From contig OY987242.1 in NCBI GenBank assembly GCA_963920765.1, forward strand, positions 29,846,002 to 29,910,001: 64,000 nucleotides of DNA. The letters are read 5' to 3'. Position 1 is the stretch's first letter. Each line of letters begins with the position of its first letter. The notes beneath the pieces were generated by a model. That model did no database searches. It had not been told where the DNA came from and was given only the letters and a program-made list of their open reading frames with translations. A program made the translations under genes and the position numbers. Positions 4,083 to 49,633 of this stretch are shown here, piece after piece. The stretch is from Ulota crispa (Eukaryota > Streptophyta > Bryopsida > Orthotrichales > Orthotrichaceae).

Positions 4083-4998
4083 TAACCCCTAAAGGACCAA
4101 GCAAAGTTTTCACCAAAAACTCTGCAAAACTGCCATTTTTAGAGCATCAACTAAATTTGAAAACAAAAACATTTTTATGCATATGTCACCGTAGGATCTT
4201 GTAGAACAATGGTTTTAGAAGATGTGGAAAAAACTTCAGAGTTTTTCACCGCGTGGATTGGAAGTTAGAATGGTTTCAATATTCAAAAACGTCTTGTGAA
4301 AAACCGGGCAGATACCCTTCAAAAGGTGAAATTCTTAAGGAAAAAAGGCCATGTGGGTGCTGCTGATCTAAATTCCTTATTCCACCTAAGTAAAGTACAT
4401 GTCAAAAAAGTTTCAAATCATTTGGAGTTGTATAACATATGAATAAAAATTAGTAAGTAAAAAGTAGAGAATGATTCAAAACACTAAATTATTAAAAATT
4501 TATTTATGGAAATGAAAAATGCCAATTCCAATGGATGCAATGTTGTCATAAACAATATTTGTTTTTTCGTCTTGTTTTTTTTCCAAAATGTTGAAAATTG
4601 AGTAAAATAAAGGACTTCAAAGTTTATTTTGCAGTAGAGAATCCATTCTTGCCCACAAACAAAAAATCCTCATAACTTTCATCTTGTTGATCCAAACATA
4701 ATGAATCAAAGCTTCCTACATTCACATAAATCTCTTGAACCAATTTTAAAAATTTATTTTTGAAAAAAGTGTTTTTAAAATTCTGCCCAAGCTGCTCGCC
4801 AAACGTAAAAAACCACATATTAGGCTATAATTTTTTACTCATAGTTCCAAATGTCATGAAATTTAGTGCATGTGAAAGATAAACCCTATCCCCACATTTT
4901 GTTAAAATTTCAGCCTAAAATATGAAAAGCTCCAATCATAAATACCTACCCGAAATTGCTATGTTTCTAAAAAAGGAGGTCTGATCCTTTAGGAGTTA
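4083..4998. mobile_element. TTAA-family element
   Basis: Left end CTAACCCCTAAAGGACCAAG, right end GATCCTTTAGGAGTTAA. The interior is the reverse complement of the copy at 28522-29440. One outer T of the left TTAA is mutated. Confidence 0.8.
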
Positions 4999-6590
4999 AG
5001 ACAAGTCTTCTATATCTGTCATATAGACGGGGTGATATGGGATTAAGGATTCCAAAATCTTTCATAATAAGGTTAGGCTCTATTCAATATTACTTTGTAC
5101 CTTCCAATGCATCACTTATCCCCATGCTATTTCCCACCCATGGCCATCTCCATGCTATCTCAACCCATAGCCATCCCCATGCTATCCCCACCCACATGGC
5201 CATCCCCTCACCCCATGGCCATCCCCATTTTTGATTTGCAATTAGCCCTTGATCTTGATCATTAATCCCAATTCATAAAAACCTCAATTAAATTATAGAA
5301 GAGGTTTTTCATCCAATCAATCTTCATCCACATGACAAACCACCATAGATATAACGACCATCACATTCAATTGTATATTTAAGATAATTAAGGCTCTCTT
5401 ATACTTAATAATTGACAATTGGCACTTTTTCATATTTGACTAAATATGGATTTTTTGTATAAATATATACTTTCTATGTTCATAGACATTGGAGATTTCA
5501 CAACATTTTGCTTGTAAAATTTTCCCAAATTTTCATGTATCTTTTTCCCAAACTTTTGCAAGGTTCATGATTCAATAATAACTTTGGATGAATTGCAAAT
5601 ACTTCCCCATGGTTTGTTTGCACCAAATACTGTTTTGCAAATCAAAACCACTCAAGCACTATTACTTATGATATGTGGATATTTCATGTTTGGTTAGATG
5701 TAGCATTGAAGCTTGGAGAGCAAGGGCCACAAGGTTGCCAAATATGATGTCAAAACATATGCCTAAAAATTTGGCTAAATCAATATTTCCAACATATTTT
5801 TTCCATGAGAAGACTAAGTTTGTGGGATGTTTTATAGCTCTGGGATTTGCTATACGTACATACATGCTTACATTTCTGTTGACACAAGCCTATATTAAAA
5901 TTCAAAGGTAAGTAGAAAGCCAATTGTAGATTTTTTCAACTTGCGTAAATAATCAATCCACCAACCAAGGGGTAATTCTACTTTCTATGTCACATTGACA
6001 TTAGTAGCTATTGCTATCATTAACGTTTCCAACCTATAAAACTTTTGACATGGAGTCAAAGATGCACGGTGATCTCCTTATTATCACATTTATTCAATGT
6101 TATATTATAGTATGTTCTAGAAAGGGTTAAAATGGGATTGAACTTTATCTACATATCATGTTCAATTTTTTTCTGATAAGGAGTTTTTTATTATTCCTTT
6201 AGTGCCACATTAAAGAAGGAAAGGTTAGAAAGTCCTTGATTCAAAACTTGCCTGCAAAGCGACTTTGAGACTTTCTATTGGACCAAAATATTGATACTAG
6301 ATTTCAAAGAAGCTGGTGGGAGGGGTTGAGGTCCTCTTTTCTAACAACGGGTCTCGGTTGCTCTCTTCTATAAGTTTTAAGGGAACTTTCGGTTTTTTAC
6401 GTTGGAATTGAGTTTTGCCGAGTAAGCTGGTATTTGAGAGTTGACTCTGGTAATTACAACCATTCAGTGGGGTAGTTCAAAAGGGAAAGAGTTTTGTGGA
6501 AAAACTTGCCAGCAGCCAATTTTAGAGAATCTTTCTCATGTTGCGGTTGTGTGGAGAAAATATTGCTCCTCTTCTTCAACTATTCTGACT
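4999..6590. other. Intergenic; degenerate CCATGGCCATCCCC tandem repeat at 5112-5230
   Basis: Units of about 20-26 bp built on CCCATGCTAT / CCATGGCCAT recur five or six times. Flanking sequence is AT-rich without recognisable genes. Small opposite-strand ORFs at 5660-5910 lack domain features. Confidence 0.5.
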
Positions 6591-7523
6591 TTAACCCCTA
6601 AAGCACTAAGCTCATTTTTTCACCAAAACGGTTCCAAACTGCCACTCTAGTACAATTATCAAATTTTAGAAAAAACTTTTTTTTTGACAAATGCAACCAT
6701 AAAATCTTATATTGCACTAGTATCAAAAGATGTGAAAAAAATTCAGGAGCTTTCACCATGTAGATTGTTAGATATTTGAGCTTGAATTGACAAAAAGTCA
6801 TTTTTTATCTCTGCAAAAATCCGAGCAGCTGCACTTCACAAAATCATATTTGTACCAAAAAAAATTCCAAAATGGTTGTAATTTTTTGGATTTGTTCTTC
6901 AAAGCAAGTTGGTTACATACTTGAAAATTTTCAAATCATTTGGAATTGTAAAACGCATGGAAAAACAATAGTAAGTATAAAGAAGTAGAGGATGATTCAA
7001 ACCACTAAATTGTTAAGAACTTGATTATGGAAATGAAAAATTCCAATCCCAATGGTTGTAATGTTGTGATAAACAATGTACATCTTATGGTTTTGTTTGT
7101 TTTTCTAAAATATTAAAAATTGAGTAAATTAATGGACTTCAAAGTTTATTTTAGAGTAGAGAATCCATAACTGCCCGCAAACAAAATCTCCTCATAACTT
7201 TCATCTCATTGATCAAAATGAGATGATTCAAAGCTTCCCAAGTATACATAAATCTAAAGAACCAATTTCAAAAAACAAATTTCAAAAAATGTAATTTTGA
7301 AAAAAAAAGTTTTTTGGTTGCTCGCCGAGCAAGGAAAACTACATATCATGCAATAACTTTTGAACCATGAAGTAAAAAGTTATGAAAGTTGTTGGGCCTT
7401 AAAGCTACTCCTTGGACACATCATGTGTGGAAGTTTCAAAGAAAAAAATGAAAAACCCCATTGGTAGTGAGCTAACCAAAATTGCTATGTTGCCAAAAGG
7501 GTGTTCACTACTTTAGGGGTTAA
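6591..7523. mobile_element. TTAA-family element, TTAA intact on both sides
   Basis: TTAACCCCTAAAG at 6591 and CTTTAGGGGTTAA ending at 7523. 933 bp. The whole element is the inverted counterpart of 20535-21537, with the same two arm types in the opposite order. Confidence 0.9.
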
Positions 7524-7601
7524 GACCCAATTTTTAAAAACTCTGAAAAAAATTTAACGAGATAAATAATTTTATTCATAGTTTTTAGGGAATTTGTAGC
7601 T

Positions 7602-7927
7602 TCTAAGAACATCTCTACCAATCCAAGCTCCTTCAAAGTTTTTCATCTATTTTGGCTGGCCCCCAAGCACCTTGATCTCCACCCATGCTCTTCAAAAAGC
7701 CAAGAGCCCTGCACTCCAACACGCCCCATAAATAATCAATTGACCACTTATCAAGGAAAGTAGAGGACAAAGTTCACCAAACTTAGGGTGAATAGTGAAT
7801 GCATAATCTCTTGAAGGGCCCTTGCTAGATACAATAGGACAAAGTCTCTTGAGAGGGTTTTGAGAGGAGCCTCAACACTTTTCATCCACTTTGAGTGTGT
7901 TGGAGTCACCGGTGGAGCTGCTCTAAT
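7602..7927. mobile_element. MITE, GAGCATC-type termini
   Basis: CTAAGAACATCTCTACCAAT at the left; the reverse complement of the right end reads TTAGAGCAGCTCCACCGGTG. Similar to 41919-42270, sharing AATAGTCAATTGACCA-like and AATAGTGA.TGCA blocks. Confidence 0.6.
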
Positions 7928-8111
7928 ACTAAGGGGTATTCATCAGGCCTTGGCAAAGAGTGCAATATTGAATGCGTTTCAAGGTCAACAATAAAAACAA
8001 AAAAAAAATATTTGATTGTTTCATGCAAACCATTTTTGGTACCTTGCAAATGTGTTGGGTTGTCATTAACCAATTTGCTAAGTCCAACACTTGGAAAAAA
8101 TTTGTCATTTT

Positions 8112-8707
8112 CTAAGGGTGTCTTTAGTCCGGTCTAAATTAGGGTACAATGAAGGTGGGTTCAAGTGTAACAGGAGAAAATTATTCCCAATATGATCACC
8201 AAAACATGTGGGAAGCTTATGGTCTCAATACAATAGCAATTCCCAAACTACATCAAATAGTGCATTTTGATTGCCGCACATTAATTCTCATATCTTACAC
8301 TTTTATTGCTGTAAAAATGATTTTCATCACTAATTACTACAAGAATTTTTTTTTTAAAGGACCTTACAACCACTACAAAGCTGCTAAAAATTAAATTAAC
8401 AAAATTCAAAGTTGTAAATTATGTAAAATCCAATCATGATCAACCTTTAGTGTGGGGCAACCTAAATGCACTATTTGGTGTAGTTGGTAAGTGCAATTGC
8501 TTTTCCAATATCCCGTTTTTGTAATTATACCAACCCTCTTCCAATCACCCCAATCTCAAGCTCCCACATTCTCGAAGCTTCAAGGTTAGCCGCGTATTGG
8601 GGCTGCAAATTTCCCAAAAAGATTGCTACAAGAGTTGTACACGTAATGCGGCCCTGCGTTTACAGTCTCTAGAGCTCTTACCCGTGCGTCAATTGAGGAT
8701 GCCCCAA
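8112..8707. mobile_element. MITE, TAAGGGTGTCYTCAG family, with a nested MITE
   Basis: Left CTAAGGGTGTCTTTAGTCC and right CAATTGAGGATGCCCCAAG are inverted. Related to 42932-43577, with shared GAGGGTACA..GGAGGTGGGTTCAAG near the left end. A 236-bp element of another family interrupts it at 8248-8483. Confidence 0.65.
8248..8483. mobile_element. MITE, CTACACTRAATATTGC..GGTTGCC family (nested)
   Basis: Left CTACATCAAATAGTGCATTT and right AAATGCACTATTTGGTGTAG are inverted over about 32 bp, ending in a GGTTGCC-like block. Other copies are at 8975-10232, 21943-22237 and 57558-57844. Confidence 0.75.
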
Positions 8708-8735
8708 GTCAAATTCCCAAAAATGTTAGAACATG

Positions 8736-8975
8736 TACAGTGGGGGGACAAAAAGATTGAGAAATTTTAACCCAACAATTAATTCTAGTGCTCTCAAGTA
8801 TGGTTTTTAGTAGGTGAAAATACTACTAAAAAGCTAAATTTTCAAACTTAAAATTGTTAAGACTACAAGTTTTTTTAGTTACATAAAAAATTTGATAGCA
8901 ATCCTACAAAATTTAGCCAATCAAAAGACTGCTAGCTAATTCTCCATTTCCCAATATTTTTGTCCTCTTACCGTA
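8736..8975. mobile_element. TA-flanked Tc1/mariner-like MITE
   Basis: TA-CAGTGGGGGGACAAAAAG at the left and TTTTTGTCCTCTTACCG-TA at the right, with 22-bp TIRs. The motif CAGTG....CAAAAAGAT is typical of Tc1-type termini, and TA is the expected target duplication. The same type lies at 56973-57209. Confidence 0.75.
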
Positions 8976-10232
8976 CATTGAGTATTGCATTTAGATTGCC
9001 TTGACAATTGGGTTGCCTTACCTTGGTAAGTTACCTCATGATTCATCACTTTGCCACTTGTAGGTGCATGCAACTCTCTAGATACTTGAATTTCACATGA
9101 TTTACAACTTGAACATTGCTGATTTGTTTTTTTGGAGCTTCATTGATGTTATCATGCCCTTTAACCCCTAAAGGACCAAGTGGCTGTTCAATAGCCACTT
9201 GAAAACTTGGGTAGGGTCATATGGAGTTATTTTTTATTGGATGTTCTCAAAATTGTTACACAAGGTGCAAATATGTATCTCCCAAGTGCAAATCCAAATT
9301 TTTCCCAATTGGATGCCCGATTCAAAAGTTATGTTGCCCAAAAAAATTGGGCAATTTGGGTAGTTTGAGCATCTTTGGAGAATTTTATGCTAAAAATCTC
9401 ATTAGATTTTGAGATTTGGCACGTATGTTACTAATAAAACATGGTGTACAATTGTCAAAAAAAATTTAAACAAAAAATTGAGCTCTCACATCACATTTTG
9501 AAGGGAGTGAAACTTGGTTAACTATGTTTAGGCAGTTTCAAGAAAAAAAATTCCTCTAACTTCAAGCCCTATTATCTTTCAATCTATAAATCTAAAGCTC
9601 TTGAAACTTTTTTTCACATATTCCAAATGTTTGTCCAACATTTTACCTTTTAGTTTTCAAATAAAAGACTTCCACAAGATGTCATGAAAGAATGACTAAT
9701 GTATTGCCAACCTCCTTGCTTTGGAGGGTGATTTAGAATAAGCTAGACTCTATATTTGCATTTAAAAATTTTCATGAGTGAACCTAACATTATATACTTG
9801 TGAATGGTTAAAAAGCTCAAATTTGTATAGAGTAAAAATTTTACTCTAGGAAGGCTCAAGGTTTGTTGACCTTGATTTGCAAGAATTAAAAAAAGACATT
9901 TTTCTCACTTCAAACAATATAATCTTACAATCCACATGATCAAATAGGCTGAAAGTTTTTGCACACGTTGGTTTATTGATTTTAAAAACTTTTATACGAT
10001 TGAAATTGAGAAAAAATATTTTTATTTCTGATTTTGAGCAATGCACTAAAAGTTGGCATTTTCTCAGATTTTTTTTCAAAAAACACCCTTGGTCATTTAG
10101 GGGTTAAAATTATTTGTTGCAGAAAACTTTATAAAATTTACTGTAGCAGCAGTAAAATATTTATATAAAATATTTGTATAGTGTAGAATGCCGAGATTTG
10201 AATGTGGGGCAACCTAAACGTATTCAGAGTAG
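8975..10232. mobile_element. MITE of the CTACACTRAATATTGC family, split by a TTAA element
   Basis: Left ACATTGAGTATTGCATTTAG, right GGGCAACCTAAACGTATTC. When 9161-10107 is removed, the remainder aligns end to end with the intact copy at 57558-57844 (shared CTCATGAYTCATCACTT, GCATGCAACTCTCTA, TTTCACATG.ATTACAACTT). Confidence 0.85.
9161..10107. mobile_element. TTAA-family element with a demonstrable empty site
   Basis: TTAACCCCTAAAGGACCAAG at 9161 and CTTGGTCATTTAGGGGTTAA ending at 10107; 947 bp. Relatives of the host MITE at 57558-57844 and 21943-22237 have one TTAA (57728-57731; 22047-22050) at the equivalent point and no insert. Confidence 0.93.
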
Positions 10233-12617: not shown

Positions 12618-12628
12618 GTTGGTGTAAT

Positions 12629-14570: not shown

Positions 14571-15499
14571 AAACCCCTAAAATTCTTTTGTGTTTAGAGG
14601 CCCAAAATTGCTTCAAAATACTAATCAACAAACCAAGGTCAAAATCTTTGTTGAAACTTACTTTTAAACAAATCCAACCGTAGGATTCATTGGTTGACTT
14701 GCACAAGTACATTCATTTGTTTCAAAATTTCAGAATGAATATTCCCACCAATTGCAAGGTCAATGTGCGTAAACTTCAAAATGTAGGCTTTTTTAGTCCT
14801 TCAAGAAGGTGAAGTTTTGTTTTTCAAATTTGTTAAAAAAAACACATATGTTGTATTTCTTGTGCAATTTTGGCAATATGTTGAAAAATGGGTTGAAAGC
14901 ATACATAAAAAAAATTAACCAAAAAAAAAAATGGATCCATTTTTACAAAAATTCTAAAGTGAAAGGTATTAATGAATGAAAGATATAACTAATATGCTAA
15001 TAAGTTTTGGAAGAATTTGAAAATTGTTAATCCCAATGGTGAGAATGCCCTAACAGACAATTAGCAACTTTATTTTTCATTTTCATTTGTAATTTTTCAA
15101 AATTGAGAGTAAAAGATAACTTTACATGTTTTTTCTACCCTCTTCCTACCTTCATTGCCCACAAAAGAAAACTCCTTGTAACTCTTACCTCATAATTTGG
15201 AACTAAGTGATTCATATTTTTTTTTTGAGTAGGTATCAATCTATACAATTCTATAAAATTAAAAAAAAAAAAAAAAATAGAGTATATTTTTTACTGCTCG
15301 GTTTGACATTGAAATTGAAAAGACCTTCTAACTTTTGCGTTACTTATTGAAATGACATGAAATAAAGCTTCACATGTAAATTATGATGAGTAGCATTCAT
15401 CCTAAAAATTTCATGAAAAAGTTCCAAATTATGAAGTCAATAGAACCTGCCCAAGTTCTCATAAAATCCAAAGTGGGCTCCTTGGTCCTTTAGATCTCG
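14571..15499. mobile_element. Degenerate TTAA-family element
   Basis: TAAACCCCTAAAAT at the left and CCTTGGTCCTTTAGATCTCG at the right, about 929 bp apart. The interior shares CCGTAGGAT, ATTCTCAC-type and TCATAA blocks with other copies. Both terminal TTAAs are lost. Confidence 0.55.
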
Positions 15500-18518: not shown

Positions 18519-20290
18519 TTGACCCCTAAAGGACCAAGCCCTTTTTTTCTCTGAAAGTCACTAAAAATTGCCATCTTTTGGGGAAATGAGTAGAAAGGTA
18601 GGAAATACAATTATTTTTGGAAATCCCCCCATAAGATCTTGCCCTAGACTATGGGAGGTACTTGTGGGGAAAAAAATCAGCTCACTCTAGATGTAGAAGA
18701 GTGAGATATTGACTCCTAAAGTGAAAAAAAAACTTTTTTTCCGTGCTGCCCAAAAATTTGAGAAGCCTTTAATTGCCCATAAATCAAAACTCTATGCAAA
18801 GTTGAGATTTATATTTTCCATGTAGAAGACCGAGTTAGGTAAGTGGAGGAGAATTTTCAAATGAATTGGAGGTGTGAAACATACTTTGTAAAATCTTGCA
18901 ATGCTGGAAGGTTATGAAATTTGAATATACACTAGGCCAAATTGGAGGATATGTGTGAAATTCAGAAATCTGAGTTACTTTGATCCAAATGGTGAAAACT
19001 AAGGAATCTTAGTCAACTACAACTTGGATAAAAAAATGTCAAAAAATAAATACTCAAAGAGCTCAAAAAAGTAAAGCACCAAAATTTGCAAGGATATAAG
19101 AAATGGAGGCTTGGAAGTCCCATACCTATGCGCACATGGAAACTTCTTACTCATCAATCAAAATTGAATGATTCCAAGCTTCCCACGTACAGTGACTCCC
19201 AAAATTGTCTCAATGTTTGCTTAGACACCAAGATTTTTTCAATATCTCCGCTATTTTGAAGTAACATTTTGTCCTTAGATTTTTTTTGTGTGATCCTCGT
19301 GCAATCATGATCAAGCATACCAAACTTCAATGACTAAAAACCAAAATCCTATTTTTGGTAAATTATTTTGTGTCAAAATCAAGAAAGCTGATCAAAAAAC
19401 ATTGGTGATGAATTTTTAGATTTGATTGCATGGGTATGTTGGAGACACCCATATGCACATCTTTGTTTCAAACAAATATTTCTAGAAATATTCTAAAAAT
19501 ATTTCCAAAAATATTCTAAAAAAATTCTAATTTTTTAAAATTTTAGGCCAAATTTAGTAAAATTGATCATTCTTCATGGAATCTATTTTTTGGCAAAATA
19601 ACTCATACCGTATGTTGTGAATAAGTTTGTAACTTTAAACATGATGATATGTTTATTTTGCCAAAAGATAGATTTCATGAAGAATGATCAATTTTACTAA
19701 ATTTAGCCTGAAATTAAAATATTTTTAGAATTTTTTTGGAAATATTTGTTTGAAGCAAAGATGTGCATATGGGTGTCTCCAACATACCCATGCAATCAAA
19801 TCTCAAAAATTCATCACCAATGTTTTTTGATCAACTTTCTTGATTTTGACACAAAACAATTTACCAAAAATAGGATTTTGGTTTTTAGTAATTGAAATTT
19901 GGTATGCTTGATCATGATTGCATGAGGATCACACACAAAAAATCTGAGGACAAAATGTCACTTATATATAGTGAAGATATTGACAAAAACTTGGCGTCTA
20001 AGCAAACATTGAGACAATTTTGGAAGTCACTGTGTATAAATCTAAAGAAACAATTTCAAAATTTTATTTAAAAAAATGCAATTGAAAACAAGTTTTGGGC
20101 TACCCACCCTCCCATTTTTCAAAAATTCCTGCAAAATTTCTTCAATAAATTTTGGAATGAAGAAATAATTAGATGCCCGTTCCCCATTGTCCATAAAAGT
20201 TTTGGATAACCACACAAAGTAGTTTAGTGATAGGTACATGGCCAAAATCCCCTTTGTCCCCCAAAGGGACAATGGTCCTTTAGGGGTTAA
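18519..20290. mobile_element. TTAA-family element interrupted by a foldback
   Basis: Left TTGACCCCTAAAGGACCAAG, right GGTCCTTTAGGGGTTAA. Removing the insert 19190-20031 and its TA leaves about 0.93 kb, the usual length. Arm types match 44976-45939. Confidence 0.85.
19190..20031. mobile_element. TA-flanked Tc1/mariner-like foldback nested in a TTAA element
   Basis: CAGTGACTCCCAAAATTGTC at 19190 and GACAATTTTGGAAGTCACTG ending at 20031. Arms of about 390 bp. The host reads TCCCACG-TA before and TG-TATAAATCTAAAGAAAC after. The intact host copy at 7235-7265 reads TCCCAAGTATACATAAATCT, so TA is the target, with the right TA mutated to TG. Confidence 0.85.
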
Positions 20291-20534: not shown

Positions 20535-21537
20535 TTAACCCCTAAAGGCCCAAACAATGTTTTTTGGCAACATAGCGATTTTGGGTAGCTCACTACAAAT
20601 GGGTTTTTCATTTTTTTCTTTGAAATTTTCACACATGATGGGTCTGAGGAGTAGCTTTAAGGCCCAACAAATTTCATAACTTTTGACTTCATGGTTCAAA
20701 AGTTATTGCATGATATGTAGTTTTCTTTGTTTGGGGGTAGCCCAGGCAGCTCAAAAAACTTTTTTAAAAATTACATTTTTTGAATTTTTTTTCAAATTGG
20801 TTTTTTAGATTTATATATACTTGGGAAGCTTTGAATCATCCAATTTTCATCAATGAGGTGAGAGTTATGAGGAGATTCTATTTGCAGGTAGTTATGGATT
20901 CCCTACTCTAAAAAAAACTTTTAAGTCCTATGTTTTACTCAATTTTTATTATTTTGGAAAAAATTAAATCAAAAGTAAGTAGATTGTTTATTAGAACATT
21001 TTGACCGTTGGGATTGGAATTTTTGTTTTTCATAATTAAATTCTTAACAATTTAGTGATTTTTATCATTCTCTACTTCTTTTTACTTAATGTTTTTTTCC
21101 TATGTGTTATACATTTTCAAATGATTTGAAATTTTTCAAGTATGTACTTGACTTGCCTTGAAGAATGAATTCAAAAAACTACAACCATTTTGAAACTTTT
21201 TTCATACAAATATGACCTTGTGAAGTGCAACTGCCCAGATTTTTGCAAGGACAAAAAACGACTTTTTGTCAATTCAAACTCAATCACCTAACAATCCACA
21301 TGATAGAAATTTCTAAATTTTTTTCCACATCTTTAGATACTAGTGTATTACAAGATCTTACGATTAGATGTGTAAATTTCTAAATTTAATTCCACATCTT
21401 TAGATACTAGTGTATTACAAGATCTTACGATTAGATGTGTCCAAAAATAATTTTTATCTAAATTTGATACTTGCACTACAAATGGCAGTTTTGGAACAGT
21501 TTTAATGAAAACATAGTCAAAAGCCTTTAGGGGTTAA
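20535..21537. mobile_element. TTAA-family element, TTAA intact on both sides
   Basis: TTAACCCCTAAAGGCCCAAA at 20535, GCCTTTAGGGGTTAA ending at 21537. A 66-bp direct duplication at about 21308-21440 explains its extra length against 6591-7523. Confidence 0.9.
21308..21440 (+). repeat. 66-bp tandem duplication
   Basis: TCCACATCTTTAGATACTAG through GATTAGATGTGT occurs twice in direct succession with almost no change. It is recent relative to the element that carries it. Confidence 0.85.
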
Positions 21538-25122: not shown

Positions 25123-26037
25123 TTAACCCCTAAAAGACCATGGCCTTTATTCTGTTAAAAGACACTCAAAACTGCCACTTCTATGGCAAAGAGTAAAAAA
25201 GTTTGAAGATTGGTCTTTTTGCATATCTAACCGTAGGATCTTATACTAGACTAGTATCAAAATGTGTCATACAAAACTCAAGAACTTTGATTGCACAAAT
25301 TGAAAGATATTTGCATTCAAAGTGTAAAAAACAAGCTTGTTTGCACCTTGTATGACTAGAATATTTAACTATGAACTTTTTTAACTTAAATTTTTTGCAC
25401 CACATAGTTTGGAATTTTAATTTTTTTTGGTGCAAAGTTGAGTTGAGAATCTTGGAAAAAAAAAAAAACTTAATTTTCATTCTTAAAAAAAACAATAGGT
25501 AGAAGAAGGTATGAAATTCAACAAAAACTTAAATTGTTAATAACCATGCAATGGATTTGAAACGCAATAATCCCAATGGTGAGATTGTTCTAGAAAGAAA
25601 ACTTCACCCTTTCCAACAATTTTTTTTGAATAAATGTTAAACTTGCATTCAAAAATGAAGTTTATAAGTTATTTTTTCAAAAAGATGTGTGAATTGCCCA
25701 AAAAACAAGATCATCCATAACTTTCTCATAACTAGTCCAAATGGAATGAATCAAAGTTCCAGATGTAGACAAAGATGTAATCTATGAGAAAAACAAATTA
25801 TAAAAAATTTGAGTTTTTGTAAAAAAAATTTGATGCCTGCTCTCCCCAAATTTGTGCTTATATGGGCATAACTTTTGCTCCCTAGCATCAATTGGTAAAA
25901 ATTACATTCCCTAAAAGCTAATATGTTTTCCTATCTTCAAAAAAAGTTTCAAAAAATTAGGACAAAAATTGAGGCCGTAGGTACCTGCCCAAAATCCCAT
26001 TTATCCCCTGTAGGGACAATGGTCCTTTAGGGATTAA
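25123..26037. mobile_element. TTAA-family element, TTAA intact on both sides
   Basis: TTAACCCCTAAAAGACCATG at 25123 and GGTCCTTTAGGGATTAA ending at 26037; 915 bp. Confidence 0.88.
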
Positions 26038-26076: not shown

Positions 26077-26831
26077 TTAACTCTTAAAAGCCCATTGCCC
26101 CTATGGGGGACAAATTGGATTTTGAGCAACTCACTAGAAATGGGTTTTTCATTTTTTTCTTTGAAATTTTCAAACATAGTGTGTCTGAGGAGTAGCTTTG
26201 CCCAACAATTTTCATAGCTTTTGACCACATGGTTCAAAATGTATTGCATGATATGTAGTTTTTTGTGAACACCAAATAGCCTAGGTAGTTCAGAGAACTT
26301 CTTAAAAAAACTCATGAATATATTTTATTTTTAAAAAATTGGTTCTTTGGATTTATATATAGGTGAGAATCTTTGAATCATTCAATTTCATTTAATGAGT
26401 TGAAAGTTATGAGAAGTTTTGGTTTGTTGGTAGGTATGGAGTCTCTCAAAGTCGTATTTTTAGGCAAACTAAAATTTCTTTTAAGTTTCATTTCATTAAT
26501 TAAAATTGAATGATTCAAAGCCTCTCACATATTCAAATATTCTCGCATATATAAATCTAAACAACCAATTCTTAAAAAATAGAAAACAGTAATTTTTAAA
26601 GAATTTGTTTGAGCAGCCTAGGCTGCCAAGAGTTTAAAGAAAACTACATATCATGCAATAACTTTTGAACCATGTGGTCAAAAACTATGAAAACTCTTGG
26701 GCCTTAAAGCTGTTCCTCAGACACATCATGTCTGATTATTTCAAAGAAAAAAAATGAAAAATCCATTTGCAATGAGCTGCCCAAAATTGCTACGTTGCCA
26801 AAAAAACGGAGCTTTTTACTTTAGGGGTTAA
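26077..26831. mobile_element. TTAA-family element, foldback form
   Basis: TTAACTCTTAAAAGCCCATT left and CTTTAGGGGTTAA right. Both halves are the same arm type in inverted orientation (TGCATGATATGTAGTTTT against AAAACTACATATCATGCA, and so on), about 360 bp each. Confidence 0.82.
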
Positions 26832-28521: not shown

Positions 28522-29440
28522 TTAACTCCTAAAGGACCAAACCCTCTTTTTTAGAAACATCGTGATTTTGGGCAGGTACTTGTGGTTGGAAATTTTCATA
28601 TTTTAGGCTGAAATATCAACAAAATGTGGGGACGAGGTTCATCTTTCATATGCACTAAATTCCATGACATTTGGAGTTATGAGTAAAAAGTTATGGCCTA
28701 ATATGATGTTTTTTTACGTTTGTTGGGCAGCTTGGGCAGATTTTTAAAAGTCACTTTTTCAAAAACAATTTTTAAAAATTGGTTGAGGAGATTTATGTGA
28801 ATGTAGGAAGCTTTGAATCAATCCATTTTGAACAACAAGATGAAACTTATGAGGATTTTTTGTTTGCGGGCAAGAATGAATTAACTACTCTAAAATAAAC
28901 TCTAAAGTCCTTTATTTTACTCAATTTTCAACATTTTGGAAAAAAAACAAAACAAAAGAATGAATATTGTTTATGACAACATTGCAACTATTGGGATTGG
29001 CATTTTTTATTTCCATAAATAAATTCTTAACAATTTAGTGTTTTGATCATTCTCTACTTCTTTTTACTTACTAATTTTTTTCCATATGTTATACAATTCC
29101 AAATGATTTGAAACTTTTTTGACATGTACTTTACTTAGGTGGAATAAGGAATTTAGAGAAACACCACCCACATGGCCTTTTTCCTTAGGAATTTCACCTT
29201 CCTAAGGGTAGCTGCCCAGTTTTCATAAGATGTTTTTGAATATTGAAACCATTCTAACTTCCAATCCACTCAACGGAAAACTCTAAAGTTTTTTCCACAT
29301 CTTCTAAAACTATTCTTCTACAAGATCCTATGGTCACATATGCATAGTAATGTTTTTGTTTTCAAAATTGATTGATGCTCTAAAAATGGCAATTTTGGAG
29401 AGTTTTTGGTGAAAACTTTGCTTGGACCTTTAAGGGATAA
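28522..29440. mobile_element. TTAA-family element
   Basis: TTAACTCCTAAAGGACCAAA left, CTTGGACCTTTAAGGGATAA right. It is the inverted counterpart of 4083-4998. Confidence 0.82.
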
Positions 29441-31527: not shown

Positions 31528-32171
31528 TTAACCCCCAAATGCCCAAGGCACCCAATTGGGTGTTTGCAAAACTTTGAAGACATATAAAATCTTATCAAAT
31601 TACTATTTTTGGTATTTTCTTTTGCACACAAGTTTTTTCTGAAGTCTATTTTCAACATCAAATATTTGATTTTGAAAATGAATGTTCATGATTTTTCTAT
31701 TCAAGATTTGTACAAGGGTGTCAACTGCAATCTTGAGTTTTTTAGTGTTGGAAGATCTTGAAAATGAGCCTCAAATACACTAGAGCTTGGAGAAAAATCC
31801 GCATTAGAAATCCATTTAAAAAAAATACAAGAGTAGATTTTGAAAGCCGTAAATTGGTTGAGGTTAAACAAGTAATGACCTTAAACCTCATATTTTTTTG
31901 ATGACCAACTTTTTAGGTTTGACATGTGAAATGAGGATTAGAAAACTTTAAGTCACTTTTGCAGTTTTAACACCCTCATGTTCAAACGTTATAATCTTTC
32001 AAACTATAAGTGATATTGTTATGTTTTCTTTTTCCATGTAATCTCTAACATGTCAAGTTTAAATTTTTAGGGTTACAATTTTAAAAAAATTGATGAGATT
32101 TATGAAAAGGTTGGTTAATTGTTCACTTTCCTGAAAATACCAAGAAGTTCAAAAAGGCCTTGGGCATTTAG
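31528..32171. mobile_element. TTAA-type element, CCCCTAAATGCCCAAGGC subgroup
   Basis: TTAACCCCCAAATGCCCAAG left and GCCTTGGGCATTTAG right. It is the inverted homologue of 48980-49633 along its whole length. Confidence 0.82.
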
Positions 32172-33081
32172 CCCCTAAATGCCCAAGAGTGTTTTTTCTT
32201 GTTTTTGGAAGGCAATTTTCAAGTTTTTGAATTGTCCTTGTAAGATCATTATCAAACATCAAAACAAAATTGTAACCGTTGAATCTTGAACTTCAAGGCT
32301 TCTAGATGGCGCTACCCAAAAAGAATCCAAAATGGCCGCTTGGATTTGAAGATATTTGCGATTGAATGATGGTGAGTATGGAATTTTTTGCTTATTTTGG
32401 AGCTGCCCAAAACTTCTAATGCAAATTGGTAACTTTTGGATACAAAATTGGAAAAAAATCATTTAGGATGCTTTAGTATTTATTGTTGTTACTTCAATAC
32501 CAATGGCCCCCCTTCCAAATCCATGACCACAATTTCACAAATGAGCCTGCAACGCAATTGTCAAAACCCAATTGTCTAATACAAAGAATTTTCAACTTCA
32601 ATTATTGACCAAAATCATTATGAATGAAAGAATTTTCAACGGTGAAAGGATTTTGATTTTTATAACAAAGACATTCCAAGTGAAATTAGTCCAAAAGCAC
32701 TTTTAGATTTAGTTAGATGTCAAAATTTCAGTAAAAAGGCCCTTATTGCCCAAGGGAGTGCCCAAAGGAAATCTTCACCTTTTGCTCAACTTGATGCCCA
32801 CCTTTTCAATGTAGCAACTTCTCATAGGCTTTGTGACACTATTCATGACACTATTCATGTCACCAAATGTATACTTGTAATCAACCTTCCACCAAAAACA
32901 ATTGGAATAAGATATGGAGGAAATTGAATTTGAACAATGAAGCTAATTTTAACGCGCAACTTTTCCAAGACAAAAAACCTAAAAATGATAAAATCGGCAC
33001 CATCAACAGGGTTTCAAAATTTCCTAAAATTTTTTGGACACCCAAATTGGGTGCCTAAGGCATTTAGGGGTTAGGGGTTAA
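32172..33081. mobile_element. TTAA-type element, same subgroup, joined to the previous one
   Basis: Begins CCCCTAAATGCCCAAGAG directly after the previous element's GGGCATTTAG. The expected shared GGGTTAA is missing. The right end is GGCATTTAGGGGTTAGGGGTTAA, with GGGGTTA doubled. Confidence 0.78.
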
Positions 33082-37640: not shown

Positions 37641-38065
37641 TTTTGCGGTCAACGTCGGGGAGCCCAGCCACATGTGAACATGAATGATCGGCTCTTGTTG
37701 GTCTTTTCATGATTTGTTTGTACGAAAATGGTGTCGATTGGCGTGAAGTCCAATTTTCATTGAGCTAAGACTTTTTCTTTGGTTGGAGAAGTGTGAATTA
37801 ATTTCTCCAAAATATGTCGTTTCACTTAACCCCTGAATGTCTAAAATCGCCTTTGTTGCCAGTACAATGCAACATACTTTTCTTCTATATGGAATGGATT
37901 TACACTTACACTTCATTTGAGATCAACAAAAAAGTTGGAATATTGATCAATGTAATTATGGCTAGCTATTTTGGAGATCCTAAATTAAAACTTCTAAATA
38001 AAAACATCTTGTTAGTAGTAAATGTCGATTATACAACAACGTTTCTATTTGTGTCCACGGGATGT
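37641..38065. other. Intergenic; lone TTAACCCCTGAATG end at 37826
   Basis: TTAACCCCTGAATGTC at 37826 looks like one end of a TTAA-type element, but no inverted partner was found before 38066. Confidence 0.35.
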
Positions 38066-38756
38066 TTAACCCCTAAAAGCCCAAGTAGTGTTTTTTTTGG
38101 CAACATAGTGATTTTGGGCAGCTCACCACAAATGGATTTCTCATCATTTTTTTGTGAAATTTTCACACATGATGTGCCCAAGGAGTAGTTTTAATGTCCA
38201 ACAATTTTCATAACTTTTGACTACATGGTTCAAAAGTTATTGCATGATATGTAGTTTTTATCAAACTCTATGTAAAATGGGCAGCTCAAGACTATTCTTT
38301 AAAAATTACATTTTTTAATTTATAATTTTTGAAATTGGTTCTTTAGATTTACATATATGTGGGAAGTTTTGAATTATTCTATTTTAATAAATCCAATGAA
38401 AGTTATGAGATGTATTAGTTTGGAGTAGGTATGGATTTGAGAGACTCCATACCTAACAACAAACTAAAACTTCTCATAACTTTCATTTCATTAATTGAAA
38501 TTGAATGATTCAAAGCTTCTCACACATATGTAAGCTGAAAAAACCAATTTCTAATTTTAAAAATAGTTTTTTGAGCTACCGTGCTTGCCCACATTGCCCA
38601 TAGTTCAATAAAAACTCCATATCATGCAGTAACTTTTGAACCATGTAGTCAAAAGTTATGAAAATTGCTGGACCTTAAAGCTACTCTTTGGACACATCAT
38701 GTGTGAAAATTTCAAAGAAAAAAGATGAAAAATCCATATGTGGTGAATTGTATTTG
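38066..38756. mobile_element. TTAA-family element, foldback form, right tip missing
   Basis: TTAACCCCTAAAAGCCCAAG at 38066. Halves are inverted copies of the arm type used twice in 26077-26831. The sequence stops about 50 bp short of the expected right terminus, at the junction with the next foldback. Confidence 0.75.
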
Positions 38757-41918: not shown

Positions 41919-42270
41919 TAGAGCATCCACACCCTTGCATGCAACATATGACTTACCAAGAGTTTCCATTTACTTTTGGAGAGCCCTCAAAATTTTTATC
42001 CCCCACCCTTACTCTTCAAGCATGTTCCACAAATAGTCAATCAGCCCCACAAATAGTCAATCAACCACACAAATAGTCAATTGACCAATCATCAAGTGGA
42101 GTAGAAGGTAGGACTCACTAAACATAGAATGAATAGTGATTGCAAAGACCATTGTTTGACACACTCAATTTGAGTGTCAAGAGGACATTTTTAGGGGTTT
42201 TGAGCAATTGAGCAATTTTCATCCAATTATTACATGCACAATTCCCTGTGTGTGGGTGCGGATGCTCTTA
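41919..42270. mobile_element. MITE with TTAGAGCATCCRCACCC termini
   Basis: TTAGAGCATCCACACCC left, GGGTGCGGATGCTCTTA right. Inside, CCACAAATAGTCAATC is repeated three times at about 42028-42083. Confidence 0.75.
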
Positions 42271-42931
42271 TGGGTGTGGATGCTCCTTCAAAATATTCCA
42301 AACAATTATTTTATGTATTGACAGCACTAAGTTCAAAAAAATTGCAACCATTTTAAAATCTTGCATGTTTTAACAAGGTGGTACATCATTAGACTATTCA
42401 TCGAAAGAACTTGGATCTTTTCAAGTTCGAAACATGAATCCAAAAGCAATAACAGCAAGTGGTGTTCTTAAAATGTAGAGAACTTAGGTGAGTTTATGCT
42501 AGTGATTATGGAGTCCTAATGTAGACTCTGTTTGTGCTTAGGAAGCCTTTTTTTTTCATTAGCTCCAAATGAAGTAGACTCCACCTCATGCGAAAGGAAG
42601 GGCAAATGAATCCATCCCTATTGGACCCCATTCACAGGGGTGGTTCTCCTATGGAGTTGAAAAGTCACCAATTTTCCAATATTCTTTACAAGTAGAATCG
42701 AGGCTTATTTTATTGTGGTACACATGGCTTTCAAAGGTTCGTCCTCCATTACTATCAAAGCTTCAACTTGCACATTCATGGCCTTGTCGCATTTCTTGTA
42801 CCAATTTGGCAGAAAATTTGCAGGATCAATCACTTTGGAGAATCTATAGATACCCCCACGTATTGAGCATGACTATGCGTAAAAGGCTCTCAAATTTCAG
42901 CACTAAGCTTAGTAGAGAGAAGGCACTGAAA
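42271..42931. other. Intergenic, nothing recognised
   Basis: No supported gene or bounded repeat. Confidence 0.45.
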
Positions 42932-43577
42932 CTTAGGGCCTCTTCAGTCCAGCCAGGATGAGGGTACAGTAATTGTATAATGGAGGTGGGTCCAAGGGTA
43001 AAGGGGAAAAATTGCCTTCAATTTGGTTGCAAAGAAAAACGGGAAGCTCACAAACTTGGCATAAGACTGATCCTAGCTAACATTTAGAAGAAACGTGCAA
43101 AGTCTAGCAAGCTGATTGCTATCAAGCTAAGTGACAAGTGTAACTAATTCTCCAACAGTTCATTTTGCAACTCTTCCATCCCTTTTGCAATCAATCTCCC
43201 TTAAGGTAGTGTGTTCTAATTGTGTTCATGCTCTAATTACATTTGGTTTTAAGAACAAGAGACATTTTAGATTAAATATCTATGACTGTCATTGATGAGT
43301 TAGATGGGATTAGCTTTATACCTAGTCTCACCTAACTCATCAATGACAGTCATAGATATTTAATCTAAAATGTCTCTTGTTACTAGAACCGAATGCAATC
43401 AGAAAACACTACCTTACTATGCTCTCCTACGTCCAGTCACCCCTCACAGTTTAGAGCCAATTGTGTATACGGGCTAAAAGCTCCTCTTGGAATTTTTACA
43501 AGAACTGCATGTGTAGTAAGGCCCTCCTTTTGCTATTTTGGGGTTCTTACCCAAGCCTCAATTGAGGACACCCTTAG
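42932..43577. mobile_element. MITE, TAAGGGTGTCYTCAG family, with nested hairpin MITE
   Basis: CTTAGGGCCTCTTCAGTCC left, TCAATTGAGGACACCCTTAG right. Related to 8112-8707. Interrupted by 43202-43416. Confidence 0.65.
43202..43416. mobile_element. Hairpin MITE, 50-bp perfect inner arms
   Basis: TAAGGTAGTGTGTTCTAATT left, CACTACCTTA right. 43254-43303 and 43332-43381 are perfect inverted repeats around a 28-base centre. Confidence 0.9.
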
Positions 43578-43875
43578 ATGGCAAGAAAAATCTAAAAAAA
43601 AAGGAATTTTGGAACAAGAGGGAAGTAACAAGCAGATCACCACTTTGAACTTGTGTCCAAAATAATTCTTTCACCTTCACATTTGGAAGCAAAGGTTCAC
43701 GATATTTTTGTATGTTGTACTCAACAAACGAGGAGATCGAAAATAATAGAATGTTAGCCAAGTGAAATACCAAATCGACCAGTTTGAAATTGAATTAACT
43801 GGATTAAAACCAGCTAAACTTTTGGGAAATTTCTAATTATAATACAAGTATATAGGCAATATTTAGGCACATGCA

Positions 43876-44822
43876 TTAACCCCTAAAGGCCCATTGTTCC
43901 TTGAGGGACAAATGGGATTTTGGGTAGGTACATATGGCTAAACTACTTTGCGAGATTTTCTGAAATTTTTATTGAAGATGGGGAATTATAAGATCTGCAT
44001 GGGAATTTAATTTTTCCTTCATTTTGATAATAATTGAAGAAGTAATCCATGAATAATTGAAAAACAAGGGAGAATTGGGTAGCAAAAAACAATTGCAATT
44101 TTTTTAAATAAAAAATTGAAATTGGTTCTTTAAATTTTTATGTATTTGGGAAGCTTTGAATCATTCAATTTTGATAAATGAGATGAAAGCTATGAGAATT
44201 TTTAGTTTGTGGGTAGGTATGGGACTCCCAAACCTCCATTCCTTTATCCCCTTGTGAAACTTGTTGCTTTACTTTTTTGAGCTCTTTGTGTATTTGTTTT
44301 TTGACTTTTTTTTTTGCAAGTTGTAGTAGACTAAGATTCCTTGGTTTTCACCATTTGGATCAAAGTAAATTGGATATTTGAATTTTACATAAATCCTCCA
44401 ATTTTGCCTAGTGTATATGCAAATTTCATGACCTTACGGCATTGTAGGATTTTACAAAGTATGATCCACACCTCCATTTCATTTGAAAATTCTCCCACAT
44501 TTACCTAACTTGGTCTTCTACATGGGAAAAATAAACCTCAACTTTGCCTAGAGCAATTTTTTTGATATAGGAGCTGTCAAATGCTTCTGAAAATTTTCAG
44601 CAGCATGGAAAAAAGCTTTTGTTTTCATTTTAGATGTCAATATCTCACTCCTCTACAACTAGAATGAGCTGATTTTTTTCCCACAAGTACCTCCCATAGT
44701 CTAGGGCAAGATCTTATGGTTGGATTTCCAAAAAAAAAAAAAATTACATTTCTCCTCACTCCCCCAAAAGTAACAGTTTTGAGTGATTTTCACAAAAAAT
44801 GGGCTTGGGCCTTTAGGGTTAA
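43876..44822. mobile_element. TTAA-family element, TTAA intact on both sides
   Basis: TTAACCCCTAAAGGCCCATT left, GGGCCTTTAGGGTTAA right; 947 bp. Its arms are those of 44976-45939 in reverse order. Confidence 0.9.
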
Positions 44823-44975
44823 GAAATAATGGTTGAAAGTCAGAAAGTGAGAATGGTAAGATTTTTACCAAGGAAGCTAGTTCTGCACAGCTAGTTCAGT
44901 TGAACTTAGATAAGCAGAACTATCCGGTTTTCTTCCCACACTGGATTTCTGGGTTTTTCCCCAAGCACGGTTTTT

Positions 44976-45939
44976 TTAACCCCTAAAGGACTGAGCCATT
45001 CAGTGAAAATTCCCTAAAGGACTGAGCCATTTAGTGAAAATCACTCAAAATTGCCATTTTTGGGGGTTAGTAAGAAGGTAGTTTTTTTTGAAAATTTGGG
45101 AAATTCAACTGTAGGATCTTGCCCTAGATTGGAATAGGTACTTGTGGAAAAAAAATCAGGTCATTCCAGATGGATATGAGTGAAATATTTACATTAAATT
45201 GAAAAGAAAAGTTTTTTTTCATGCTGCCGCAAAATTTCAAAAGCCTTTGACCATTCTTACATGAAAATAATTGCTCTATGCAACTTTGCGCTTTATTTTT
45301 CCCATGTAGGAGATCAAGTTAGCTATGTGTGGGAGAATTTTCAAATCAATTGGAATTACACAACACATGAGAAAAATCAGTAAGTAAAAAGAAGTAGAGA
45401 ATGAGTCAACTCACTAAATAGTTAAGAATTTAATTATTGAAATGAAAAATGCAAATCCCAACGGTCATAATGTTGTGATAAACAATCTACATCCTTTGGT
45501 TTTGTTTTTTTTCCAAAATAATAAAAATTGAGTAAAATAAAGGACTTCAAAGTTTATTTTAGAGTAGAGATTCCATAACTAACCGCAAACAAAAACTCCT
45601 CATAACTTTCATGTCATTGATTGAAATTGAATGATTCAAAGTTCCTCACCTATAAAAAAAATCTAAAGAACCAATTTTGAATTCTAAATTTAAAAAAAAT
45701 TAAATTTTAAAGAAGATTTTGGACTGCCCAAGCGGGCATTCCTCCCTTGCTTTTCAGATTTTCAAGCATAACTTCTTCAATAATTGTCATAATGAGGAAG
45801 AAATTAGATGCCCGCTTAAATCTTTGAAATCCCCACCTTCAATAAAAGTTTCAGAAAATCACACAAAATAGCTTATCCAAAGGTACATGCCCACACTCCC
45901 ACCTGTCCCTCAAAGGGACAACAATCCTTTAGGGGTTAA
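44976..45939. mobile_element. TTAA-family element, TTAA intact on both sides
   Basis: TTAACCCCTAAAGGACTGAG left, ATCCTTTAGGGGTTAA right. A 30-bp tip duplication (CCTAAAGGACTGAGCCATT, twice, 44980-45040) occurs at the left end. Confidence 0.9.
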
Positions 45940-48900
45940 TGTAATCCATTCCACACTAATGAAACAAATCTCAGGACGACCCTGGTTTTTCCCGTAAGGA
46001 GGTTTTTCAAAATCTCCTTGGACACTGAGTGTACATGTATGATTGATATGGATTTGGAGCTTTTGACTTGCATGAACATCCTTCCTGCTTGCAATCAATG
46101 CTTAATTCCTCCATTATTCTTTAAAACTACTCACAACCAGTGTCCGGGGAGATTCAAGCTTCATATGCAAAAATCTCACATTTCTCATTATTGACCAATT
46201 TTTGGAGTGCATGTATAAATATCTATATAATAATTAGACATTTTTAGAATATCTAGACGATTCTTATCCGGTAGATTTGTACAGTTATCGCTTCCTTTTT
46301 TTGTTATTTGAGTTGGTTGACTTCCTAAAGTTTTCAAATCTTTGCACACATTGCTCATAACAGCTTTTAAATTTGTAAATATGGCTTCAAACACGATATT
46401 CATTAATTTGGGAAACGGCAATTCCCAATTTGTATCTCCTTAATCTGAAACTCTCATCTTAATCTTGTTTGGTATACCTGTGAGAAAACAATTGATACTT
46501 TACAGATAATAGATGTTTAAATTTGAATTAGTCATGAAGAAGTGGAAATAAAATAGGCATGGTATGAAATGAAAATGTGGCTAGAAGTCCCAAAATGTGT
46601 TGGAATTCCCAAATTAATGAATATTGTGTTTTCAACAAAATCCTTTGCAGTTTTAATACCCTCATACTAGTGAACCCTAATTACTTCCCCCAAGCAAGTG
46701 AATTATGCAATGGATTGTAATTGGAAATTCTGGAGTGGTGTCACACTAAGTAATTTCACTTCTGCTTGATTGCTCTTAAAGAAAAGGGCATGTGACAATA
46801 TTTTGTTTAAGCAACATATTTGCAAGCTAAGATCCTCATGCACAAGCAATCTCATGTTTGCACCATTGATTACTTGGGCTTCACCCTTGTTGTAAGAAAG
46901 TCCTTGCATGAGACCCTAGGTGAAACCCTTGGTGAGACCCTTAAGGTAGACAAACCCATTCCCAATTGCTCCTCAATTTTGCACCCTACTTTTGAGGTGT
47001 TCACTGTCCACTCTTGACCCAAAGTGGAGCAATGAACATTGCTTGCACAAGCAAATTTTGCCACATGTCAATTGCTGAGTTGCTATGAGGTAGTTGGGAT
47101 TGGAACAAATAAGTGCCATTATAGAAACACATCCAAGCAATTTCAAGGTTAGTTTAGAGTTGCTAATAGGGACCCTATGAATTGCAACTCTGCCTTTTAA
47201 TATAAAATAATTTACAATACGTTTTTCCACAAAAATTATGTTCTATGATAGCTTGTTGAAAGACTAACCTAAAGATTTTTTCCTGAATTTTCCAAAACCT
47301 TCAGGTACCCCAAACCCTTAAACGGTCGGGTATGGGTCGGGTATGGGTCTGTCTACCTTACCCTACACATTTTGTTAGTGCCACATCAAAAAGGACTCAA
47401 TTTAATGTTCATAAAAAAGTAAGGGCGTTACAACCCTATCCAGGCACGCAAAATCAGGTTTTTTCTCCCATCCCAGAGTAGATTGTTCCCCACCGGACCT
47501 AGCCATGGGACTAAAATTGTGTCTCCTGTTTTTTTTACTTTTTTCGTAAGGTGTGGTAAGGGAGTTCAGAACTACTTTCCATTAGAGCAAACGTCATCAA
47601 AATCTGGGTCCTTTCTACCAAAATTTCAGCACATATGATTCCAAGAGCAATTTTAAGTACTCAATGAAAATTAAAAAAGGAAGCATAAAATGGCATCTTT
47701 TCTTTAGTTCAATGGCCTTGAGGCCTACTGTTAATAAATATAAAACATGAAGAACGAAGGAGAACAAGTAGAGTCATTAAGATTTTATATACTATCTTGG
47801 TTATAAATTTTTAGGAAAATATTTTAAATAAAAAGAAAATGCATTTTGATGTAATTTGAGAGTGTGCTTTAAGGTTATGAATTGGCCTTCCATTTTTGGT
47901 GAGTTCATCTGTAGGTGGTGATACTATGTTTAATTTTTGTTTTTGAGTCCAAGAAGAATTTTCAAAACTCAAGTCTTGATTCTTAATGAAAAGGTTGGGA
48001 AACTTATTTTAGAAATTGGACTTCCAGAAAGCAAGAATTGATCATTAGGTGGCTTCAAAACAACCTCATAGTAGCGTAGAGTGTCCTAGCTAATTATTTT
48101 GAGGTGCAGAATTGCCATGTGTCAAACTTGTCCAATTCCGTGTTTTTTTTAATGTTCCCACAAAGTTTGTTGGTCTTCTAGGACTTCATACAATGTTCTT
48201 TTCTTAAAAATCTAACAAAAAAATGTTGATTCTAAGGTGCTTGAGTTGATGCCACTTGGATTCATGGAAGTTTTGGGTTGATGCCACTTGGATCCATGGA
48301 AGTTTTGGGAACAATTGATTAGTAAAAATCTATGAAATATTGTCTCTCACCACTATCCACTCAAAATCTATAGCAAAAGCATAGGGCACCACTTCCATCA
48401 AGACCACATGGAATGAAAAATAAAGATTTTTCTTCTTTGAATTTTGTGGAATTTGTATGGACAAACAACTCATTGTTGCCACTTTGGTCAATGCAAATAG
48501 TTGAGTTGAAGAATCATGGACTGTTCAAAATGTTGTATACATTTGCAAGAACAAGAATTGAAGAGAGTTCAAATTCTCTAATTAATTCAATATAATAAAA
48601 GAAAGGTACCTATAGGAGAGTTGAAGCAAAGCACATGGATTTTTCTTGTGAAAATTAGAGATATTTTTCTTGCTCTTTTTTTGTTGTATTTGCTAACTTG
48701 ATGTTTTTAATGACCAAAATGATTATCTGTAATTGCTATTTCCAAATATAAGACAAAGTAAAATCTACCTTCAATGGACAATGATAATCAAACATTTCAA
48801 ACCACTACTCTACTCTAATGCCAATACTAAGAGCTCTATTGTAATTGTATCATTATGTTGTGTCTTATTGCATCACTTTACACTCTTGTTTGCAAAATTT

Positions 48901-48979
48901 GCAATTTTGGCTACACCATTTGCACATTTGGCTATATCATTAGTACTTTTAACAAATTTTCTTTACACATTTGACTACT
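45940..48979. other. Intergenic; one MITE (46389-46631) and a 33-bp tandem duplication at 48245-48309
   Basis: AAACACGATATTCATTAATT and the inverted AAATTAATGAATATTGTGTT bound a 243-bp MITE. GTTGATGCCACTTGGAT..ATGGAAGTTTTGGG is doubled at 48245-48309. GGTCGGGTATGG is doubled at about 47325. No gene is recognised. Confidence 0.5.
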
Positions 48980-49633
48980 TTAACCCCTAAATGCCCAAGG
49001 CCTTTCTGAACTTCTAAGCATTTTTAGGAAAGTGAACAATCAACCAACCTTTTCATAAATCTCATAAAGTTTTTTTTAAACTGTAACCCTACAAATTTAA
49101 ACTTGACATGTTAGAGATTACATGGAAGAAAAAAACACAACAATATCACTTATAGTTTGAAAGATTATAACGTTTGAACATGAGGGTGTTAAAACTGCAA
49201 AAGTGACTTGAAGTTTTCTAATCCTCATTTCACATGTCAAATCTAAAAAGTTGGTCATCAAAAAAATATGAGGTTTAAGGTCATTACATATTTAACCTCA
49301 ACCAATTTACAGCTTTCAAAATCTACTCTTGTATTTTTTTTAAATGGATTTCTAATGCGGATTTTTCTCCAAGCTCTAGTGTAATTGAGGCTCATTTTCA
49401 AGATCTTCCAACACTAGAAAACTCAAGATTGCAGTGGACACCCTTGTACAAAATCTTGAATAGAAAAATCATGAATATTCATTTTCAAAATCAGATTTTT
49501 GATACTGAAAATAGACTTCAAAACAAATTTGTGTTCAAAAGAAAATACCAAAAATAGTGATTTGTTAAGATTTTATTTGTCTTCAAAATTTTGCAGACAT
49601 CCAAATTGGGTGCCTTGGGCAATTAGGGGTTAA
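48980..49633. mobile_element. TTAA-type element, CCCCTAAATGCCCAAGGC subgroup
   Basis: TTAACCCCTAAATGCCCAAG left, CTTGGGCAATTAGGGGTTAA right; 654 bp with TTAA on both sides. Confidence 0.9.

Follow-up and report, generated by a model that had tools for sequence, protein, structure and literature searches.

What are the repeats that dominate the 64,000-nucleotide stretch of Ulota crispa DNA analyzed here (the window), and what kind of enzyme moved them? Our answer, with a probability of about 0.93, is that they belong to the piggyBac superfamily as non-autonomous cut-and-paste transposons. Each element would be a gene-less stretch, mostly ~0.64 or 0.9-1.0 kb long, between short inverted ends of the form TTAA-CCCCTAAANGNCC. 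Their movement would have relied on a DDD transposase of the piggyBac type, the product of a gene elsewhere in the genome, that recognized these ends and, in some groups, probably also a box ~175 bp inside one end. This enzyme would have excised the element at TTAA and moved it to another TTAA, with one TTAA left on each side.

The end motif TTAACCCCTAAANG (at most 2 mismatches) occurs 32 times in the window, compared with a mean of 2.7 and a largest count of 9 in 100 shuffles. Family-matching stretches longer than 80 bp number 17, one of which is two adjacent copies, a count near the "about 20 elements" with shared ends given in an earlier note on this DNA. They make up 21.1% of the window (21.0% with only copies from outside the window as reference), a little under the quarter that the same note had estimated. 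The eight elements that it named as having TTAA on both sides were all checked, and TTAA bounds each of them at its start and finish (8/8), with no repetition in the 4 bp beyond.

These eight predicted non-autonomous elements (strand is given where one is assigned) lie at 6591..7523, 9161..10107 (minus strand, group D), 20535..21537 (group F, with a 67-bp tandem duplication at 21307-21440), 25123..26037 (group C), 26077..26831, 43876..44822 (group A), 44976..45939 (group A, with a 31-bp tandem duplication at its left end), and 48980..49633 (plus strand, 640-bp group B). Outer sites have mutated in other elements of this kind: a piggyBac-type member of the ~0.9-kb group A at 4082..4999 has CTAA for its left TTAA, a second group A element at 28522..29440 has TTAA on the left and ATAA on the right, and an element of the TTAACCCCTAAATGCCCAAG group at 32168..33074 has TTAG on both sides (read inward, TTAG and CTAA). 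The last of these is adjoined by a family copy at 31528..32167, and a copy with degraded ends occupies 14572..15493. Partial copies are present at 1..247 (cut by the window start and recognized by family similarity), 1033..1299 (one end, recognized by end motif and family similarity), 18519..19191, 20033..20290 (one intact end), and 38066..38746. No open frame of at least 110 amino acids is fully contained in any window copy; the frame at 37802-38188 extends over the start of the copy at 38066. Rfam and tRNA scans of the window returned nothing. Its genes include pieces of a pyridoxal-dependent decarboxylase and an LEA_2 domain, at 51812-52303 and 60728-61111, both on the minus strand.

The same ends are abundant throughout the genome, of which 275 Mb in 157 contigs were searched. 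The core CCCCTAAANGNCC, taken as an exact 13-mer without requiring TTAA, occurs 19,962 times (9939 + 10023), and its reversed control 41 times (17 + 24). The exact 17-mer composed of TTAA and this core occurs 16,751 times (8386 + 8365), and its reversed control is absent. The earlier note had allowed that flanks genome-wide might show no TTAA beyond the copies, which is not what is found: TTAA precedes 16,751 of the 19,962 exact cores (84%). The window holds 8 exact ends against 3.9 expected from the genome count, about twice the average density, and by a rough inference the family takes up near a tenth of the genome. Looser matches were studied in a 264-kb sample, which consists of the window and 20 stretches picked around listed matches and is not random. 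TTAA precedes 133 of the 202 13-mer matches found there with at most 2 mismatches. Upstream of these matches, base composition is near background from -6 to -12 and slightly skewed at -5. The reversed 13-mer gave 51 matches on the same 264 kb, so many of the 69 loose matches without TTAA are chance occurrences.

Fifty-nine inward-facing pairs of ends occur in this sample, 36 of them with exact TTAA on both sides, and their lengths cluster at 638-647 bp (7/59) and 899-950 bp (26/59). The copies align end to end as several groups, within which nearest-neighbor identity is mostly 80-93% (73-77% in the smallest groups), and most copies therefore look old. One identical pair in opposite orientation inside a single 10-kb stretch may be a local duplication. 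The two ends of one copy agree over ~17-21 bp, and the deeper sequence is specific to each end. Being short, gene-less, high in copy number, and of preferred sizes, the copies resemble MITEs, a label that is loose here because paired copies are mostly 0.64 or 0.9-1.0 kb long with an inverted repeat of only ~17-21 bp. Lengths near 0.9-1.0 kb are common to gene-less groups that hardly align with one another (in the 264-kb sample and loci L043 and L044). At L022:4863-6357, two further insertions interrupt a copy of the 640-bp group, and one of them, with an apparent ~9-bp duplication judged from alignment coordinates, is probably another transposon type.

The genome also contains candidate enzymes. 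A profile search with PF13843, the piggyBac transposase domain, in which 116 of 528 first-look candidates were scored, gave at least 120 matches (best E = 1.3e-73) and none in 14 control genomes. Stops fall inside 110 of the 120 matches listed, and introns could be the source of some of them; open stretches from six loci all match the profile (6/6). One encoded protein matches the piggyBac transposase 6x67 (E = 4.1e-20) and piggyBat 9c0f (E = 5.8e-17) in sequence. Seven proteins from seven loci are 24-61% identical to the first, which implies that several transposase lineages coexist. Two equally scoring PF13843 matches in opposite orientation, ~14 kb apart at C2:36765124-36766008 (plus) and C2:36779670-36780554 (minus), are an inverted duplication or an assembly feature, and a similar pair occurs at C7:18203169 and C7:18223004.

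Some of these genes lie within delimited elements. In the region C3:13129500-13137499, a transposase gene is enclosed by TTAA...TTAA in a 5,027-bp element with the ends TTAACCCCTCATCGCCAA and TTAACCCTTCATTGCCAA. Copies of this ~5.0-kb element, each with a PF13843 match, are located at C3:13130262-13135288, C10:11524996-11530022, and C8:14764131-14769128; a fourth, on C11, agrees at 72-73% and has no listed PF13843 match. Over its terminal 450 bp, the C3 element agrees with the C10 and C8 copies at 93-94% on the 3' side and 88-90% on the 5' side. When 150 bp of flank is added, the matches to these two copies open at query base 151 on the 5' side; on the 3' side they open at 150 or 151. Either boundary is thus no more than 1 bp away from the first T of TTAA. 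The 3' flank query produced six further matches (72-75%) within the added flank, which contains a repeat.

In a second lineage (L033 and L036), DNA similarity stops no more than 5 bp away from a TTAA-type site (TTAATCCTTTAACGACC and TTGACCCTTTAAGGACC). Among 100 listed places (of 210) with an end of this type, 3 are correctly oriented and lie at a distance of 1.1-2.4 kb on the 3' side of a listed PF13843 match; none lies on the 5' side. Random placement gave a mean of 0.15 and a maximum of 3 in 2000 trials, in a test that used guessed lengths for C9-C11 and 116 PF13843 rows out of 120, the other four being second pieces of genes already in the list. At L036:5346-6314, a gene-less copy of the TTAACCCC type sits directly at the terminal TTAA-type site of the transposase element, whose end is at 5349, as if it had inserted into that site. 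Thirteen transposase loci were looked at, five of them only as downstream slices of 2.0-2.5 kb, and L029, L039, and L040 displayed no clear end.

The ends of the transposase elements connect them to gene-less families. A 16-bp end of the ~5.0-kb element, TTAACCCCTCATYGCC, is common to a gene-less family of ~970 bp, the only one shown to have the same end; the 5' end shared with this family reads TTAACCCCTCATCGCC. The sequence TTAACCCYTCATYGCCAA (at most 1 mismatch) occurs at 197 + 224 places genome-wide, compared with 3 + 5 for the control, and forms 7 inward pairs 952-982 bp apart among the 100 places listed. Two of these pairs were read, and they are gene-less family copies 81% identical to each other; at their ends, 21-36 bp can be aligned with the 5' end of the transposase element. 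For one of the listed ends, the alignment to this 5' end spans 36 bp at 94%. Beyond the ends, the two copies have no match to the transposase element at E <= 0.01.

The earlier note had proposed looking for a DDD transposase (DDE_Tnp_1_7) bounded by the termini of the window copies. Such transposases exist with closely related ends; with the exact main-family ends TTAACCCCTAAANGNCC, none was found among the 13 loci, five of which were seen only downstream. The source of the main families may thus be extinct or not yet seen, and the PF13843 link for the window copies runs through related ends only. The gene at C2:36765124 has a main-family-type end 1.95 kb downstream that continues into 586 of the 899 bp of a gene-less copy. 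No matching 5' end was found upstream, where two alignments scored 36 (shuffled maximum 33) and 32 (shuffled maximum 26). Because only these 586/899 bp are shared and the other end is little above shuffles, we did not accept this gene as the parent of the 32168-33074 type. Nonetheless, the TTAA duplication and the PF13843 elements with closely related ends together support the superfamily assignment that the note had made. Neither outcome that the note had named as refuting came about: TTAA holds genome-wide, and the related-end elements located through PF13843 encode DDE_Tnp_1_7. The resident piggyBac genes are probably of the kind that moved the gene-less copies, and we infer that resident transposases moved those in the window.

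The alternative that survives best, though it is an improbable one, assigns the elements to another TTAA-duplicating superfamily and treats the piggyBac genes as unrelated residents. Sola3 and Kolobok both create TTAA target duplications, so that this duplication alone cannot tell the superfamilies apart, and the missing transposase between exact main-family ends is as such a reading would have it. Against this, elements with piggyBac genes occur in the same genome with the same end pattern, the same TTAA boundary, and, in one lineage, the positioned box, and the 16-bp end of one of them is identical in a gene-less family. The weak points of the piggyBac assignment are the missing autonomous element with exact ends, the CCCC start, and the fact that other transposase loci, like the majority of group A and C copies, lack the box. 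Short inverted ends are present. PMC2872659 quotes, for the superfamily, inverted ends of 12-19 bp with a CC[C/T]T motif. The main families start with CCCCT and differ from this motif in their fourth base, C; CCCT is found in L030 and at one end of L031.

That TTAA is the target duplication is indicated by uninterrupted sites. Element flanks were joined with one TTAA and searched against the 264-kb sample. Four elements gave a total of six alignments that extend 30 bp or more across the junction; the subjects are diverged repeat copies, not alleles, and the number of joined flanks searched was not recorded. In all six the 4-bp site is single (TTAA twice, CTAA, TTTA, and CCAA twice), and since uninterrupted repeat copies hold the site once, TTAA is read as the duplicated target, as the earlier note had supposed. 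Two of the four elements have TTAA on both sides and two have a decayed right copy (TTGA and ATAA), and the two clean TTAA empty sites come from the latter. The joined flanks of 9161..10107 match window positions 57570-57851, where the site, now TTTA, is single, and those of 28522..29440 match two repeat copies with a single site in each. Five own-locus matches, one match in L015 (16 bp across the junction), and two further matches for element E12 were left out of this evidence. A target duplication other than TTAA was rejected, as none appears in the joined-flank alignments or outside the named copies.

The same alignments bear on a still less probable reading, in which the inverted repeat includes TTAA and the target is not duplicated. 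It would account for the named copies having no further direct repeat outside TTAA, but uninterrupted sites hold the 4 bp once, as TTAA in two and as diverged 4-mers in four. Least probable of all is that the ends are scattered telomere-like sequence, for although CCCTAAA is the telomere unit of this genome (arrays of it within 2.7 kb of the end of contig C1 fit the plant origin that the earlier note had supposed), each end carries a single unit followed by family-specific sequence, the ends pair inward at two preferred lengths, and the copies align end to end as groups.

The transposon reading is extended by a 23-bp box, GATTGAAAGATTATAATGTTTGA, located ~175 bp from one end and common to several gene-less groups that otherwise hardly align and to one transposase element. 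It has 23 matches in 158 ends (one end, which lacks the box, is counted twice through overlapping loci); all point inward, 22 of them 163-177 bp from TTAA and one at 156. In reverse it occurs once, the 400 bp outside the ends gave none on the forward strand, and shuffles gave a mean of 0.6 and a maximum of 2. In the window, the box occurs at 9910..9932 (minus strand), 175 bp inside the right end of the 9161..10107 element, and at 49155..49177 (plus strand), 175 bp inside the left end of the 48980..49633 element.

With a matrix built from the 640-bp family alone, the box is found in the 5.0-kb transposase element, at a distance of 173 bp from its 3' end, and in L034 at 174 bp, measured there from a presumed end not established by comparison. 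Near the same distance, and at just one end of a copy, the matrix also scores above the shuffled level in group D, in group F, in some small groups, in the ~970-bp family, and in a single copy of group A. In groups A and C, no box exceeds this level in most copies, and the box is lacking at that distance in transposase loci L030/L033/L036 and L032 and at the 5' end of L031. The best matrix match falls at 155-182 bp in 20 of 57 left ends (8 of them in the training family) and 13 of 57 right ends, with ~4.2 expected for each. When those 8 elements are set aside, 98 ends remain, of which 16 pass the shuffled 95% level inside this zone and 10 outside it; the 67-bp duplication has displaced one of the ten, found at 241 in the right end of 20535-21537. 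The 57 rows include related copies, pairings that are probably not true elements, and, for L034, a 3-kb slice with an end on one side only; in no element do both ends pass that level within the zone. A separate matrix was trained on its own scored zone, and the box counts and the 640-bp-family matrix weigh more.

Genome-wide, an end followed by the box core after a gap of 145-170 occurs at 767 exact places (367 + 400), compared with 0 for the reversed control; the pattern was chosen after box matches in the ~970-bp copies had been seen. Among the 100 places listed, all on C1, 93 fall in 10 of the 26 allowed spacings, and the 21 places displayed with letters include ends reading CTAAATG, CTAAAGG, CTCATTG, and CTCAATG. 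Because it is kept at a fixed distance in groups that hardly align, we read the box as a putative binding or recognition site for the transposase. We give slightly better than even odds to a broader model in which piggyBac is a dominant DNA transposon group of this genome, with many co-resident lineages, and one lineage group has polar ends. These would combine short ends with the 23-bp box at a fixed distance of ~175 bp from the 3' end only. The persistence of the box in gene-less groups that can otherwise hardly be aligned would be due to its role as a long-range recognition site, used by the transposase or by a host factor.

Insects are the best-known hosts of the piggyBac group, and piggyBac itself, which comes from animals, serves as a standard tool in genetics. 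A piggyBac-rich plant with many readable transposase lineages is a natural source of plant-adapted ends and enzymes, and this genome offers a case for studying the success of the superfamily in plants. The one-sided box at a fixed distance makes a concrete, testable claim about what piggyBac ends require.

Several known systems invite comparison. The elements considered here are like those of the piggyBac superfamily (T. ni piggyBac, 6x67; piggyBat, 9c0f) in their TTAA duplication, short inverted ends starting with C, and PF13843 in resident elements; they differ in the plant host, the CCCC start of the main ends, the box ~175 bp inside one end in several groups, and the gene-less state of the window copies. 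Wuneng and Microuli are rice elements. A passage of PMC2872659 treats these two as TTAA-duplicating; they are also short, the comparison being one of descriptions, whereas here piggyBac transposase genes reside in the same genome. Coral CMITEs, as portrayed in part of the same paper, are likewise gene-less, with TTAA duplications, ends starting with C, and similar-ended piggyBac-like genes in the same genome. Those elements are ~100 bp long, and for one species the family sizes are estimated at 18 to 737 (PMC2872659), whereas copies here are mostly 640-950 bp and exact ends exceed 16,000.

The earlier note knew of no well-described, abundant piggyBac-type MITE group in land plants. This holds for abundance, since no abundant land-plant piggyBac elements appear in the titles and abstract openings of the literature matches listed (one of these, PMC10619864, was dismissed because the part at hand contains only the word "piggybacking"). 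It does not hold for plant piggyBac MITEs as such, given Wuneng and Microuli (PMC2872659) and the excerpt of PMC10004981 that counts PiggyBac among seven MITE superfamilies of angiosperms. Repeats annotated as PiggyBac also occur in another land plant, the fern Ceratopteris, where an extract of PMC6890710 gives 1,230 copies and 122,417 bases, or 0.00% of the assembly, in contrast to 21% of the window here. What is new in the present elements is their abundance, the resident transposases, and the one-sided box.
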